Shown here: positions 45,458 to 50,091 of the stretch, one piece after another
Layout of the letters: the number at the start of each line of letters is the position of its first letter
How positions within the stretch are numbered: the stretch's first letter is position 1
Source: Pseudomonadota bacterium
Lineage (GTDB): Bacteria > Pseudomonadota > Alphaproteobacteria > Micropepsales > Micropepsaceae
Assembly: GCA_016201105.1 (NCBI GenBank)
Contig: JACQDN010000069.1
Span: 1-64,000, forward strand
Length of the DNA stretch: 64,000 bases
Direction: 5' to 3'
Position numbers and translations under genes: made by a program
The notes under the pieces: model-generated
Told to the model about the DNA's origin: nothing
Database searches by the model: none
Seen by the model: the letters and a program-made list of their open reading frames with translations, nothing else

Positions 45458-45868
45458 ATGTCTTACGTCGAACGGTCCTTGGGCGCGAATGAGAAGGTTA
45501 TCGCGCGCGCGCATTTTCACTGGAGCTATACGTTGGTGGCGGTGCTGGCGCTGATCGTGCTCGGCTGGTTGCTCATCGGTATCTGGATCTTCTTCGCCAT
45601 GATGATCCCCAAATGGACGACGGAGATTGCGGTGACCAATCACCGTTTCATCAAGAAGACGGGTTTGTTCTCGCTGCACACCGAAGAGATCGCGATTCCC
45701 AACATCGAAGGGGTGGAAGTCACTCAAAGCTTCTGGGGCCGCATCCTCGGCTTTGGCCGCATCCGGATCGAAGGCACCGGAGTCGACAAGACCGAAACGC
45801 CGCTGATTGCCAATCCGGTGGAATTCCGCCGCGCCATCGAAACCGCCAAAGAAAGCGGGACGAAGTAG
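45458..45868 (+). CDS. Membrane protein with bacterial PH domain
   Basis: A 136-residue protein with two adjacent membrane segments (about 22-50) followed by a bPH2-type domain: WTTEIAVTNHRFIKKTGLFSLHTEEIAIPNIEGVEVTQSFWGRILGFGRIRIEGTG. Bacterial PH domains of this kind bind no lipid phosphates that I can infer and the role is unknown. The next gene starts at the base after its stop, so the two are transcribed together. Confidence 0.85.
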   Translation: MSYVERSLGANEKVIARAHFHWSYTLVAVLALIVLGWLLIGIWIFFAMMIPKWTTEIAVTNHRFIKKTGLFSLHTEEIAIPNIEGVEVTQSFWGRILGFGRIRIEGTGVDKTETPLIANPVEFRRAIETAKESGTK

Positions 45869-46438
45869 ATGCGGAATTTCGTCCTCGCCGTCTGCGTGAT
45901 CCTGACATCTGCGTCGCCAGTTCTTGCGGGCGAAACGTTTTCCGTGCGCGGTGTCGCGAAAAACGATGTCCTCAATCTGCGCGCGGCTCCGGATTCCAAT
46001 TCCAGAAAAATCGCGACCCTGCCACCGAACAGCACCGGAATTGCGGTAACGGCCGTCGCAACCGCCAGTCTGAATTGGGTGAAAATCCAGAAGGGCGACA
46101 AGAGCGGCTGGGTGAACGCAAAATTCCTCGCGTTTGAAAACGGATTGCCTGTGCGTCTTTCCTGTGGCGGCACCGAGCCATTCTGGTCCATCGCCGTGGG
46201 CCACGGCCGCGCCAATGTCGATTTCACGCCGTTCGAAGGCGGCAAGGCCGTGCTCGCCCTTGACGGGCCAGTGACGCCGCTCGGCGGCGCAAGTGTCTGG
46301 CTCTATGCGGTGCCGCACAAATCCGATTTTCTGCTGCTGCAGAAAGGGACCTGCTCCGACGGCATGTCGGACATCCACTATCCTTATGCGCTGTCCGCGC
46401 GGGTGAACGCGCATTTTGTCAGCGGCTGCTGCCGTTAG
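45869..46438 (+). CDS. Exported SH3b-domain protein with COG3650-like C-terminal part
   Basis: A 189-residue exported protein. Signal peptide (about 1-20), a bacterial SH3 domain (VLNLRAAPDSNSRKIATLPPNSTGIAV, WVKIQKGDKSGWVNAKFL), then a region with CGGTEPFWSIAVGHGRANVDF and a closing GTCSDGMSDIHYPYALSARV. The C-terminal pattern matches uncharacterised COG3650-type proteins. It may sense or bind the cell wall through SH3b. Its start follows the PH-domain gene stop directly. Confidence 0.8.
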   Translation: MRNFVLAVCVILTSASPVLAGETFSVRGVAKNDVLNLRAAPDSNSRKIATLPPNSTGIAVTAVATASLNWVKIQKGDKSGWVNAKFLAFENGLPVRLSCGGTEPFWSIAVGHGRANVDFTPFEGGKAVLALDGPVTPLGGASVWLYAVPHKSDFLLLQKGTCSDGMSDIHYPYALSARVNAHFVSGCCR

Positions 46439-46574
46439 AGGCGCACCCTCACACCGGATCGGTTTTGCGCATGATTCGCATGACTGAAATTTCGCGGCTG
46501 GGGTGCGACGGCACGGTCGTGTCGCGCGCAATCCAAAGCAGCTATGGTGTGAGCGGGTGTCGAGGACATTGACC

Positions 46575-46958
46575 ATGATATTGAAGAACGTGGGAATCTG
46601 CCTGGTGGCGGGCGCGGCCTTCCTTTCACTTTCAGGTGCGGCCCAAGCGGCCGGCGATCCCACCGCCGGCAAGAGCGTGTTCGCCCGCTGCGCCATCTGC
46701 CACACCGTCGTCAAAGGCGGACCCAACGGCATCGGGCCAAATATCTTCGGCGTCGTTGGCCGCAAGGCCGGGTCGGCGCCCAATTTCAACTATTCGGCGG
46801 CAATGAAGAGTTCCGGCATCACCTGGATGGCAGACAAACTGGACGCCTACATCACCCATCCCGGACAGACCGTACCGGGCAATCGCATGGCTTTTGCGGG
46901 AATCTCCAACGCCCAGCAGCGCGCCGACGTGATCGCCTATCTGCAAACGCTGAAATAG
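46575..46958 (+). CDS. Soluble periplasmic class I cytochrome c
   Basis: A 127-residue monoheme cytochrome. The signal peptide (about 1-25, AAQAAG) precedes the heme motif CAICH (39-43), then KGGPNGIGPNIFGVVGRKAG and the methionine ligand in GNRMAFAGIS. The last helix DVIAYLQTLK is typical of cytochrome c2/c550. It is a mobile electron carrier in the periplasm. It is the first gene of the redox cluster with the cupredoxin and the cytochrome-porin, and resembles the membrane-anchored paralogue at 2651. Confidence 0.92.
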   Translation: MILKNVGICLVAGAAFLSLSGAAQAAGDPTAGKSVFARCAICHTVVKGGPNGIGPNIFGVVGRKAGSAPNFNYSAAMKSSGITWMADKLDAYITHPGQTVPGNRMAFAGISNAQQRADVIAYLQTLK

Positions 46959-46996
46959 CGCCCTCGCGGGCACGGCCGCCGCAACAGCGATCGGAT

Positions 46997-47010
46997 TTGA
47001 TATTAATCAA
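46997..47010 (+). promoter_or_regulatory. FNR/Anr/FixK-type box upstream of the cupredoxin gene
   Basis: TTGATATTAATCAA is a perfect TTGAT-N4-ATCAA match, 127 bp upstream of the cupredoxin ATG and 38 bp after the cytochrome stop. Regulators of this family act under low oxygen. Site use is inferred. Confidence 0.7.
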
Positions 47011-47136
47011 CGAATTTTTGAATTCGCGCGCTCATCATTGCGGCACAATTGCGGTTGCATCATGTCCCACGATGCCGGCGGCCGGTAATATCACGACCGA
47101 TGCCATGGCCGGATTCGCAGATGAGAGGAGCAAAAC

Positions 47137-47475
47137 ATGTCTCGTGCATTCATCGCGCCGCGCTTTGCACTGTCGGCAACTGTCGCGTTTTCGCTTCTTG
47201 CGTTTCCCGCCGCCGCCGCTGAAACCAAGGTCGATCAACACGATCTGAAGTTCACCCCGGATGCGATCACGATCAATGCCGGCGACAGCGTTCGCTTCAC
47301 CGACACCGACCACATTACCCACAACATCACGATCGTAAATCCCGACGGCACCGCCGACGACAAGGGCATGGACAAATACAACGAGGACATCGTCGTGCCT
47401 TTTGCAAAAGCCGGCACGTACCAGGTTCATTGCAAAATCCATCCGATGATGAAGATGGCCATCACCGTCAAATAG
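47137..47475 (+). CDS. Periplasmic cupredoxin (plastocyanin/pseudoazurin-type blue copper protein)
   Basis: A 112-residue electron carrier. Signal peptide (about 1-28, AAAAE), then a small beta sandwich: VDQHDLKFTPDAITINAGDSVRFTDTDHITHN. The type I copper ligands are His62 (ITHN), Cys99 and His102 (HCKIHP) and a methionine at 105 or 107. GAGGAG precedes the ATG. It lies between the cytochrome and the cytochrome-porin gene, with a perfect FNR-type box upstream. It probably shuttles electrons in the periplasm between the outer-membrane protein and the cytochrome. Confidence 0.92.
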   Translation: MSRAFIAPRFALSATVAFSLLAFPAAAAETKVDQHDLKFTPDAITINAGDSVRFTDTDHITHNITIVNPDGTADDKGMDKYNEDIVVPFAKAGTYQVHCKIHPMMKMAITVK

Positions 47476-47534
47476 CCGAAAGTCTGCTCGTATCTGCGAG
47501 TCTGTCGGGGGCGGACAAGCGATTGGCCTGACGA

Positions 47535-47561
47535 CCAGTTCTGGCGGTACGCCAGAACTGG
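47535..47561. other. 12-bp perfect inverted repeat between cupredoxin and porin genes
   Basis: CCAGTTCTGGCG and its exact reverse complement flank a GTA loop. It lies 60 bp after the cupredoxin stop and 95 bp before the next FNR-type box. Without a T-run it may be an operator or an RNA-protecting hairpin rather than a terminator. Confidence 0.5.
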
Positions 47562-47655
47562 CGCAACAACGGCGCAACCCGCGACCGGCGCGTGGCAAAC
47601 AGGTGTTGCACACAGGCTACACATCTCCATGCGGATGGCGCGTATCCGATCCCCG

Positions 47656-47669
47656 TTGATTACGATCAA
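47656..47669 (+). promoter_or_regulatory. FNR/Anr/FixK-type box upstream of the cytochrome-porin gene
   Basis: TTGATTACGATCAA is a second perfect TTGAT-N4-ATCAA site, 88 bp before the start at 47757. Together with the first box it indicates shared oxygen-responsive control. Confidence 0.7.
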
Positions 47670-47756
47670 AGAAGTACCGAGCTCGCCTTGCTAATTCTCG
47701 CCAGCAATTGCCGCCCCATCGCGGCAAAGCTGTGAAATAAAGCTGGAGAGTTCATC

Positions 47757-49088
47757 ATGCGGGCCTATTTCTACGCGTTGCTGTCGGCCATGGCGCTTGT
47801 GGCTTTGAGCACCCAACAGGCTGCGGCCGTTCCGGCCTACGCAGTCCAGACCGGCCAGCCCTGCACCGCCTGCCATGTCGGCGGTTTCGGTCCGCAGCTC
47901 ACCCCGTTCGGCCGCCAGTTCAAACTGGAAGGCTACACGATGCGAGCAGGCGACGAGTTTACTGCGCCGATCTCCGCAATGGCCGTGTTCTCCTATGTTC
48001 ACACCAACAAGGACCAGCCCCCGCCGGCCGCGCATTACGCCGTGAACGACAACACCACGCTGGATCAAGCCAGCCTGTTCCTCGCGGGCGGTGTCGGCGA
48101 CCACTTCGGCGGCTTCTTCCAAATGACCTATGACGGCATCGGCCGCGCCTTTTCATGGGACAATCTGGATCTGCGCGCCACGACGCACGAGACGATCGGC
48201 GACAACGACGTTCTGCTCGGCGTCACGCTCACCAACAACCCGACCGTCCAGGACGGTTGGAATTCGACGTCGGCCTGGGGCTATCCCTATACCGGATCCG
48301 ATCTGGTGCCGGGACCCGCCGCGGCGACTCAGATCGACGGCGGCCTGGCGCAGACCACGCTCGGCACGAGCATCTACGCCTATTGGAATTCCTCGCTTTA
48401 CACCGAAGTCGGAGTCTACTGGACGCCCGGCCGCCAATTCCTGAACGCGATGGGCGCATTCGCGTCCGACAACAATATCATCAACGGCGCGGCGCCCTAT
48501 GTACGGGTGGCGTACCAGAAGGACTACGGCGACCAGAACTTCGAGATCGGGGCGTTCGGCCTGTTCCCGCATCTTTATCCGGGCGGAGACAAGAGCGCAG
48601 GCACCACCGACCGCTACAGCGATATCGGCGTGGATGCCTCTTACCAATTCATGGGCGACAGCGAAAACATCTACCAGGTGGACGCTCGCTATACGTCGGA
48701 AAGCCAGAATCTGGCCGCCACACAATTCCTCGGCGGTTCGGTGAAGACGCACAATCATCTCAACGATTTGCGCGTCGATGCCACTTACAATTGGCACAAC
48801 ATGATCGGCGTCAGCGCCGGCGCTTTCGATACTTGGGGCTCGTCCGACGCACTGCTCTATGCTGACAACCGCACCTTCAAGCCCGACAGCGCAGGCTTCG
48901 TCCTTCAAACCGACTACACGCTGTTCGGGGGAGCCGATACGCCGCTCGGCGGACGCTTCAATGCGCGTATCGGCCTGCAATACTTCATCTACACCAAGTT
49001 CAACGGCGCGACGTCGAACTATGACGGGTTCGGCGCCAATGCCTCGGACAACAATGCGTTCAGGCTGTTCCTCTGGACCGCCCTCTAA
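47757..49088 (+). CDS. Outer-membrane monoheme cytochrome-porin fusion (Cyc2-like)
   Basis: A 443-residue protein. Signal peptide (about 1-24), one heme-binding motif CTACH (36-40) in GQPCTACHVGGFGPQLTPFGRQFKLEGYTM, then about 370 residues of alternating beta pattern with aromatic girdles and a C-terminal strand ending FRLFLWTAL. The heme-motif-plus-FGRQFK-GY start followed by a barrel is the architecture of Cyc2, the outer-membrane iron oxidase of some iron bacteria, and of related uncharacterised porin-cytochromes. Substrate here is unproven. It follows cupredoxin and cytochrome genes and has its own FNR-type box. A strong hairpin follows the gene. Confidence 0.82.
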   Translation: MRAYFYALLSAMALVALSTQQAAAVPAYAVQTGQPCTACHVGGFGPQLTPFGRQFKLEGYTMRAGDEFTAPISAMAVFSYVHTNKDQPPPAAHYAVNDNTTLDQASLFLAGGVGDHFGGFFQMTYDGIGRAFSWDNLDLRATTHETIGDNDVLLGVTLTNNPTVQDGWNSTSAWGYPYTGSDLVPGPAAATQIDGGLAQTTLGTSIYAYWNSSLYTEVGVYWTPGRQFLNAMGAFASDNNIINGAAPYVRVAYQKDYGDQNFEIGAFGLFPHLYPGGDKSAGTTDRYSDIGVDASYQFMGDSENIYQVDARYTSESQNLAATQFLGGSVKTHNHLNDLRVDATYNWHNMIGVSAGAFDTWGSSDALLYADNRTFKPDSAGFVLQTDYTLFGGADTPLGGRFNARIGLQYFIYTKFNGATSNYDGFGANASDNNAFRLFLWTAL

Positions 49089-49109
49089 GGGCTCAGGGGA
49101 CCCAATCTC

Positions 49110-49138
49110 GGCTTATGCGGCGGAACGCCGCATAAGCC
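49110..49138 (+). terminator. Hairpin after the cytochrome-porin gene
   Basis: A perfect 13-bp stem, GGCTTATGCGGCG with its reverse complement across a GAA loop, begins 21 bp after the stop codon. It is followed by GTTCATATT, a weak T-run; a terminator is likely. Confidence 0.65.
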
Positions 49139-49341
49139 GTTCATATTGCGCTGCACAACGAAGAATCGCGGGTTAACCGCGGCCCGATAATCCGCCCCCA
49201 GAGCCATGAACCTTCGTTGACAGCCGCGCGTGCCCGGACCTAGTTTTTGCGCCGCACAAAAAACCGGCGGAACCCAAAAGGCGTTTAAAGATCGCGTTCC
49301 ACGAATAAACCGCCGCTCCTGGGGAAGGCATTCGAGAAGCC

Positions 49342-50091
49342 ATGAAAGTACTGGTCCCGGTCAAACGGGTGATCGACTACAATGTGAAGGTTCGCGTTAA
49401 AGCGGACCAGACCGGCGTCGATCTCGCCAACGTCAAAATGTCCATGAACCCGTTCGACGAGATCAGCGTCGAGGAAGCCATCCGGCTCAGGGAAAAGGGC
49501 AAGGCCACGGAAGTGATCGCCGTTTCCATCGGACCGCAACAGGCCGGTGAAACCATCCGCACCGCGCTCGCCATGGGCGCCGACCGCGGCATCCTGGTGA
49601 AGACTGACGGCGACGTCGAACCGCTGGCGGTGGCGAAGATCCTGAAAGGCATCGTCGAGGCCGAGCAGCCCGGCCTTGTCATCACCGGCAAGCAGGCGAT
49701 CGACGACGATTCCAACCAGACGGGCCAGATGCTGGCCGCGCTTCTGGGTTGGCCGCAAGCGACGTTTGCGCACAAACTCGAACTCTCCGACGGCAAGGCC
49801 GATATCGAACGCGAAATCGATGGCGGCCTTCAAACTGTCGAGGTGAAGCTTCCCTGCGTGATGACGACGGATCTGCGCCTCAATGAACCGCGCTATGCCT
49901 CGCTTCCCAACATCATGAAGGCGAAGAAGAAGCCGATCGACGAGAAGACGCCCGCCGATTACGGCGTCGACGTCACGCCGCGGCTCAAAGTCCTGAAAGT
50001 GACGGAACCTCCCAAGCGCCAGGCGGGCATGAAAGTGAAAACGGTCGCCGAGCTGCTCGACAAGCTCAAGAACGAAGCGGGGGTCATCTGA
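49342..50091 (+). CDS. etfB: Electron transfer flavoprotein beta subunit
   Basis: A 249-residue subunit of the ETF that accepts electrons from acyl-CoA and other dehydrogenases. It starts [19 protein letters not shown] and includes the ETF-beta signature [44 protein letters not shown], and [28 protein letters not shown] (AMP-binding side). The C-terminus has [12 protein letters not shown]. It overlaps etfA by one base. Confidence 0.96.

Follow-up and report, generated by a model that had tools for sequence, protein, structure and literature searches.

We analyzed a 64,000-nucleotide stretch of DNA (the window; assembly GCA_016201105.1, contig JACQDN010000069.1, positions 1 to 64,000) from a bacterium of the family Micropepsaceae. 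It carries, in a row, genes for a soluble cytochrome c, a small type I copper protein and a Cyc2-like porin in which a one-heme segment is fused to a barrel. On balance, the evidence tips toward a role for this porin as an outer-membrane electron inlet that operates at low oxygen, most likely takes electrons from Fe(II), and passes them to an adjacent carrier and then to an oxidase.

According to this proposal, an electron from an outside donor, most likely dissolved Fe(II), would enter the single N-terminal heme c of the barrel. From there it would pass to one of the two periplasmic one-electron carriers encoded next door (copper protein or cytochrome c) and finally to a cytochrome c oxidase. 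At low oxygen, a regulator of the FNR/FixK type would raise expression of the copper protein and porin genes. Because no RuBisCO was found, this supply of electrons would be a supplement to growth on organic matter and would not drive RuBisCO-based CO2 fixation. We infer the outer-membrane location of the porin, the direction of flow, iron as the donor, the docking of the carriers and the control by oxygen from the observations below.

Layout of the three-gene locus

A preliminary description of this DNA had reported a cytochrome with the heme site CAICH, a cupredoxin and a 443-residue barrel with the heme site CTACH lying in a row; our motifs and coordinates agree with it. The features of the locus are as follows.

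46575 to 46958, forward strand: class I (c2-like) cytochrome c, 127 amino acids, CAICH at residues 39-43, Pfam Cytochrom_C
46997 to 47010, forward strand: perfect FNR/FixK-type box TTGAT-ATTA-ATCAA, ending 126 bp ahead of the cupredoxin start
47137 to 47475, forward strand: small type I copper protein (cupredoxin), 112 amino acids, Pfam Copper-bind
47656 to 47669, forward strand: perfect FNR/FixK-type box TTGAT-TACG-ATCAA, ending 87 bp ahead of the porin start
47757 to 49088, forward strand: Cyc2-like fused cytochrome-porin, 443 amino acids, one-heme segment plus predicted 16-stranded barrel
47826 to 47876, forward strand: heme-domain signature inside the porin, AVPAYAVQT-GQP-CTACH followed by the long loop VGGFG-PQL
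49109 to 49139, forward strand: terminator-like stem-loop of 14 pairs just 3' of the porin, from a consensus scan only

The intergenic gaps are 178 bp between the cytochrome c and the cupredoxin and 281 bp between the cupredoxin and the porin. Because of these gaps, and because an FNR-type box lies ahead of two of the three genes, the layout suggests separate promoters instead of a single operon. The scan that found the stem-loop returned 8 such sites in the 3.1 kb covered, compared to 3.5 in shuffled sequence. Each of the three proteins begins, as judged by eye, with a hydrophobic stretch that resembles a signal peptide. The same order of cytochrome c, cupredoxin and porin was found in Rhizomicrobium sp. 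CRAIB_MAG71 (locus L060; 72% identical), the nearest named relative listed.

The porin has a predicted Cyc2-type architecture and departs from the Cyc2 motif

The porin has a single N-terminal CXXCH (C36-T-A-C39-H40) and no further cysteine. It matched no family in Pfam, NCBIfam or PHROGs, and a sequence search of PDB chains returned none at E up to 10. With the window porin and 73 relatives as input, AlphaFold produced a model with a mean predicted local distance difference test score (pLDDT) of 91.1 and a predicted template modeling score (pTM) of 0.87. In this model short helices (residues 26-57) surround the CTACH and are followed by 16 main strands (residues 72-442). The preliminary description had proposed a structure prediction of 47757-49088, and the outcome, a 16-stranded barrel behind an N-terminal one-heme segment, supports its reading of a Cyc2-type architecture. 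The matches listed by Foldseek and VIA-align were to outer-membrane barrels, porins and others, with sequence identities of 7-14% and a best Z of about 22; OprO was among them at rank 42. In the accessible portion of PMC8406198, OprO is the porin named for Cyc2, and 16 is the strand number given.

That paper (Keffer et al. 2021) describes the Cyc2 signature as AXPXFAR[Q/K][T/Y], then CXXCH, then PXL four residues on, in a protein with a 16-stranded barrel and at least 365 residues, whose heme domain would close the barrel like a plug on the periplasmic face. At 443 residues and 16 main strands, the window porin agrees with Cyc2 in size and strand number. Its first motif is different: it reads A24-V-P-A-Y-A-V-Q-T32, with Y28 in place of Phe and V30 in place of Arg. 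P46-Q-L48 is present and lies six positions past H40, compared to four in short-loop relatives, which makes the loop from heme to PXL two residues longer than in relatives such as PSFARQTGLACEACHTVFPQL. Tyr in place of Phe is also frequent among relatives that keep the Arg (PSYARQTG). As read from the alignments, the real departures from the Cyc2 motif are therefore the loss of the Arg and the longer loop. Since the defining motif is absent, we file the protein as a Cyc2-like variant and not as Cyc2. The earlier Cyc2 reading thus holds for the one-heme barrel architecture and for homology to Cyc2-like porins, as described below, and falls short at the published motif.

We also considered whether a heme-barrel fusion has already been solved. 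By fold, every match listed was a porin or some other barrel of the outer membrane; a profile search of the PDB gave three chains at E of 0.37 or worse, and these were cytochrome c' and azurins. Met75 was considered as a distal heme ligand. This residue is near-invariant in long-loop and short-loop rows of the alignment and not in distant rows, and its assignment is at most a clade-level guess.

The porin belongs to a long-loop clade in which Arg is often lost

In a profile comparison, a set of nine short-loop, Arg-keeping Cyc2-like porins aligned with the window porin over its whole length (probability 100, E 2e-130). A weaker match, over 286 columns, was obtained with a distant set of nine porins that carry the published motif, eight from family f74 and one from family f93 (probability 99.4, E 5.6e-21). 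Arg-keeping Cyc2-like porins with various loop lengths were observed in Pseudomonadota at loci L187, L188, L192, L194, L196 and L198-L201.

We built a quick maximum-likelihood tree, with Shimodaira-Hasegawa-like approximate likelihood ratio test (SH-aLRT) support only, from 88 of 117 rows; 25 near-relatives had been thinned and 4 rows dropped (two duplicates and two contig-edge pieces). The window porin fell within a 27-row alphaproteobacterial clade (support 95), itself part of a 58-row long-loop clade (98). Two short-loop groups (96 and 97) formed separately from the long-loop clade, the f74 rows were distant from it, and two more longer-loop rows fell outside it.

The conserved Arg is distributed unevenly over this tree. 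It was kept in none of the 25 readable rows of the alphaproteobacterial clade, where V, A, E, D, Q, T, I, S or M replaced it (the clade's two further rows are incomplete at this position). Of the long-loop rows outside this clade, 26 of 32 kept it; so did 28 of the 29 rows from the rest of the tree, the 29th being incomplete there. In alignment A3, which covers 73 of the best 80 public loci, 22 sequences keep the Arg, 46 are without it and 5 are incomplete at the position. In the part of PMC8406198 available, sequences without PXFAR[Q/K][T/Y] were removed before the published Cyc2 tree was made. Because of this filter, that tree cannot contain the Arg-less rows; it could contain long-loop rows that keep the motif.

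A mixed porin profile (E up to 1e-5) matched 88 of 398 sampled Pseudomonadota genomes, among them that of the window. Family f74 accounted for 65 of these 88; its genomes are 1.2-3.1 Mb, and the matches are mostly to the N-terminal part. The f74 motifs (PAFARQTG and PVFARKYG) together with the small genomes would fit Zetaproteobacteria.

Long-loop and short-loop porins share one chromosomal slot

Within the genus, a chromosomal slot runs from ftsK (or a bPH gene) to etfB-etfA-hbd. We read it as far as each stretch reaches, which in L038 and L052 is the etf side only. In the window, L031, L035-L042 and L044 the slot is occupied by a long-loop porin, and in L051, L052, L054 and L056 by an Arg-keeping short-loop porin. 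Only L052 of these four agrees fully with the published motif; in the other three, Tyr replaces Phe. A diheme c4 gene lies directly downstream of the short-loop porin in L051, L054 and L056; the contig of L052 ends inside or at the porin. A cyc2 gene followed by the c4 gene cyc1 is the order of Acidithiobacillus (PMC10654088), and cyc2 followed by a cytochrome c gene is that of Ferrovum (PMC10879576). The occupancy of the slot suggests equivalent roles for the two kinds of porin. Since the exchange is with Arg-keeping Cyc2-like porins, it points to a Cyc2-like job for the long-loop porin.

Soluble electron carriers recur beside the porin genes

Carriers were sought at 100 loci, which remained after seven duplicates were dropped from 107 and in which long-loop and short-loop porins are pooled. 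We used profile models on six-frame translations in place of longest-open-reading-frame calling, which antisense reading frames had misled. At least one soluble carrier lay within 1.5 kb of the porin at 81 of the 100 loci. Class I cytochrome c gave 50 matches within this distance and none at 3-7 kb. High-potential iron-sulfur proteins (HiPIPs) gave 27, which represent 22 loci since five loci were matched by two models. The other matches within 1.5 kb were to diheme c4-type cytochromes (11), azurins (6), small cupredoxins (6) and the inner-membrane cytochrome b561 (8).

In the more distant region, at 3-7 kb, these models returned one match, a c4, in 596 kb; the near region comprised 281 kb. The models were seeded from porin neighbors and so favor the near region, although seeding does not explain the near-absence of matches farther off. 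Matches at 1.5-3 kb, such as a second cytochrome c in L041, were counted as neither near nor far. The azurin and c4 labels were assigned by eye, Pfam giving the wider family. Pfam confirmed nine of ten carrier representatives (HIPIP 1, Copper-bind 5, Cytochrom_C 2 and cytochrome b561 1); L078 had no match. L078 belongs to the main HiPIP group of 17 loci, in which Pfam HIPIP was found in nine of ten members at E up to 0.01. The best PDB match of this group was PioC (6xyv, E 1.9e-18), ahead of other HiPIPs. PioC is listed among iron-oxidation proteins (PMC10654088).

These recurrent periplasmic carriers lend weight to the earlier comparison with the parts of Cyc2-based iron oxidation; for the window porin, iron as the donor and inward flow are proposals.

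The two carriers of the window itself belong to common families. The cytochrome c has one CXXCH and scores 42.1 bits against Pfam Cytochrom_C (cut-off 21.3), as a class I protein should, and its nearest PDB chains are 4dy9 and 2yk3, then the cytochrome c2 1hro (E 5.4e-29). The cupredoxin scores 43.8 bits against Copper-bind (cut-off 21.2). The copper ligands proposed earlier, His62, Cys99, His102 and a Met, are all at the positions given; Met occurs at 104, 105 and 107, and by analogy with amicyanin we take Met105 to be the ligand. The best matches of the cupredoxin are amicyanin, pseudoazurin and plastocyanin, with halocyanin and weaker ones also returned by NCBIfam, and it shares the type I copper family and ligand pattern of the first three. 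Its NCBIfam scores lie far under the cut-offs for amicyanin (41.3 versus 110.2 bits), pseudoazurin (39.9 versus 109.85) and plastocyanin (32.5 versus 87.85). By these scores the protein is therefore a relative, and a member of none of the three equivalogs. Rusticyanin, which the preliminary description gave as an example of the copper protein in Cyc2 systems, did not appear among its matches (we did not check whether the NCBIfam library holds a rusticyanin model).

Further carriers were observed in the window's genome and at other loci. A PioC-like HiPIP gene lies on another contig of the genome (G000 C50:13556-13822, reverse strand, within L235), and its product might serve this path as a further carrier in the periplasm, after the cupredoxin and the cytochrome c the third. 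Among the 37 genomes of the genus covered by both the porin and the HiPIP search, the window's own included, a HiPIP (E <1e-10) was found in 10 of the 19 porin-bearing genomes and in 1 of the 18 that lack a porin match (Fisher p 0.003, uncorrected for kinship and partly due to HiPIP genes often adjoining the porin); in one of the ten, G025, the HiPIP is a 50-residue piece at a contig end. At eight loci (L095, L106, L116, L122, L123, L127, L137 and L138) a cytochrome b561 gene lies upstream of the porin and a cytochrome c gene downstream; b561 might there connect the quinone pool with the outer-membrane heme. In five loci from Rhodanobacter and Dyella (L112, L119, L120, L130 and L135), a HiPIP gene of a second group, divergently oriented, adjoins a long-loop porin, and each has a perfect FNR-type box upstream of the porin.

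FNR-type boxes and respiratory genes

We take TTGAT-N4-ATCAA to be the consensus of FNR/FixK-type regulators. Exactly two perfect copies occur in the window, where 0.02 would be expected, and they are the two boxes ahead of the cupredoxin and the porin. Across the 100 loci, 18 perfect boxes were found in 263 kb around the clusters and 6 in 1,034 kb elsewhere, an enrichment of about 12-fold (Fisher p 1.2e-8, the loci not being independent). Nineteen control inverted repeats of the same composition gave 0 matches near and 2 far in all.

In the genome of the window (3.85 Mb, 98.6% complete), the Crp-type helix-turn-helix was matched 10 times, in 7 cases above the cut-off. One of these proteins carries an N-terminal ECAACPARAVSFC stretch, which resembles that of oxygen-sensing FNRs, and the gene for another lies about 4 kb from cbb3-type oxidase genes (C54). 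The preliminary description had proposed a search for oxidase and bc1 partner genes, and both are present elsewhere in the genome: two full COX1 genes, read by eye from their surroundings as aa3-type and cbb3-type, and one Cytochrome_B gene, read by eye as bc1-type. Two one-mismatch boxes occur at the ccoN-type locus; no FNR-type box was found at the aa3-type locus.

RuBisCO matches above 200 bits were obtained in three other members of the genus (G030, G032 and G034), all of which have the porin, and autotrophy seems to be patchy within the genus. We considered RuBisCO as a correlate of the porin and set it aside, since three genomes are too few and the window's genome is not among them. MtrB/PioB, considered as the real conduit of this genome, gave no match there, and control genomes were equally silent.

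Direction of flow and identity of the donor

Several observations weigh against a low-oxygen, Cyc2-like inlet. The porin lacks the Phe and Arg of the published motif, and the Arg is absent throughout the readable alphaproteobacterial clade. The AlphaFold model contains no heme. The reference rows of the profile comparisons are Cyc2-like sequences from genomes, none of them a characterized Cyc2, and the deepest split of the tree is unsure because long branches meet at its distant outgroup. No recognized carrier was found at 19 of the 100 loci, although 7 of these 19 have the porin <500 bp from a contig end. Perfect boxes occur at only 13 of the 100 loci, the other 87 having none in the range counted, and a scan of 46300-49400 found no sigma-70-type promoter. 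There is no match to RuBisCO in the window's genome.

Iron is a plausible donor, and we favor it because long-loop porins exchange in one slot with Cyc2-like porins and because relatives have PioC-like partners. On the other hand, the loss of the Arg, the lifestyle of the clade and the missing RuBisCO make other donors or outward flow possible, and the caution of the preliminary description, that the substrate may not be iron, stands. One such explanation is that the same conduit accepts electrons from Mn(II), Cu(I), reduced humics or phenolics, with the Arg loss and the long loop retuning the heme. The replacement of Arg in 25 of 25 readable rows of a clade outside which it is mostly kept would fit this idea. 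So would the named members of the clade, which belong to Caulobacterales, Sphingomonadales, Micropepsaceae and Acetobacteraceae, lineages that are mostly not known as iron oxidizers. Other uses of Cyc2 homologues are also possible according to what is available of PMC5566968 and PMC8406198. However, the slot is common to these porins and to Arg-keeping Cyc2-like ones in the genus, and the PioC-like HiPIPs beside the porins of relatives point to iron; we regard a non-iron donor as unlikely.

Outward flow appears quite unlikely. In that case electrons of the respiratory chain would reach the porin heme by way of the cytochrome c or copper protein and, under anoxia, leave for an external acceptor such as Fe(III), humics or an electrode. 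Anaerobic control would agree with the FNR-type boxes, the nearest named relative is labeled Rhizomicrobium, and the b561 upstream of the porin at eight loci would offer a quinol link. No b561 was found at the window locus, however, and the carriers that recur (HiPIP, azurin, cupredoxin and c2-like cytochrome) are high-potential proteins of the kind that usually feed oxidases. It could also be speculated that the protein is an ordinary solute channel or a sensor, with a heme that serves signaling or assembly and with carriers nearby by coincidence. In favor of this, the barrel folds like general porins such as OmpC and OmpF, and 19 of the 100 loci have no recognized carrier. We consider this highly improbable, as coincidence would not place 50 cytochrome c matches within 1.5 kb and zero at 3-7 kb, nor carriers of unrelated fold (cytochrome c, HiPIP and cupredoxin) in the same position. 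The low-oxygen inlet for electrons, most likely from Fe(II), is therefore the explanation that we prefer.

Relation to known electron conduits

The known systems closest in plan are those of Cyc2 (A. ferrooxidans Cyc2, Mariprofundus Cyc2PV-1 and Leptospirillum Cyt572), which, like the window porin as predicted, combine one N-terminal heme c with a 16-stranded barrel and have periplasmic carriers and oxidases as the later links of the electron path. The window porin differs in lacking AXPXFAR[QK][TY], in a loop two residues longer than that of short-loop relatives and in its place in a separate long-loop clade. It is accompanied by a small cupredoxin and a cytochrome of the c2-like kind, where Cyc2 systems have rusticyanin and a c4 cytochrome. 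PioABC and MtoAB have extracellular electron exchange in common with the proposed role, and a PioC-like HiPIP adjoins the porins of relatives; unlike those systems, the window has a fused one-heme porin and no decaheme neighbor.

The gene of a Bradyrhizobium Cyc2 homologue lies in a cluster with genes for one HiPIP and three cytochromes c of the periplasm, according to the accessible text of He et al. 2017 (PMC5566968). Bradyrhizobium is alphaproteobacterial, as is the window; compared by description, the window differs in having a cupredoxin and one cytochrome c and no adjacent HiPIP. The same paper also covers a Cyc2 homologue of Rhodanobacter. As far as that text goes, HiPIP and cytochromes c beside an alphaproteobacterial Cyc2 are already known from Bradyrhizobium. 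In the literature searched, from which subscription papers were mostly missing, we found no account of the Arg-less long-loop clade, of carrier interchange or of FNR control of cyc2, and no paper treating both Rhizomicrobium and Cyc2.

Cyc2 has been proposed as a marker of iron oxidation, and here a homologous clade breaks the motif rule yet keeps the barrel and the heme. Because this clade adjoins one-electron carriers, in part with low-oxygen control sites, our data suggest that one-heme electron ports are more common than has been counted, including in a genome without RuBisCO. A wider proposition, which we advance tentatively and hold to be more doubtful than the inlet itself, is that the Arg-less long-loop porins are overlooked, oxygen-regulated electron ports of heterotrophic Alphaproteobacteria (Micropepsaceae, Caulobacterales, Sphingomonadales and some Rhodospirillales). 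One barrel would there be wired to whichever carrier the host has, and Fe(II) would be replaced or joined by another outside donor or acceptor. The role of the conserved Arg in Cyc2 and the handling of iron by Cyc2 homologues outside known iron oxidizers can now be tested.

Distribution of the porin and neighboring genes

Among 100 genomes, the porin was matched in 27: the window's own and 26 of 59 others from the same genus. The remaining 40, which represent other genera of the class, gave no match. Contigs of public genomes contained at least 570 confirmed relatives, called by tblastn at E 1e-3 and not all shown to be long-loop or Arg-less. The 80 public loci that we used are the best 80 of these and are biased toward close relatives. 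Labels among them included Rhizomicrobium, Micropepsaceae, Caulobacteraceae, Phenylobacterium, Sphingomonadales, Novosphingobium, Polymorphobacter and Rhodospirillales. Further labels were Rhodanobacter, Dyella, Lysobacter, Solimonas, Azoarcus, Derxia, Ideonella, a Gallionellaceae metagenome-assembled genome and others.

Just upstream of the cytochrome c gene, positions 45458-46438 of the window encode a bacterial PH-domain protein (PF03703) and an SH3-domain protein (PF08239). The PH gene was found repeatedly near the same chromosomal slot across the genus.

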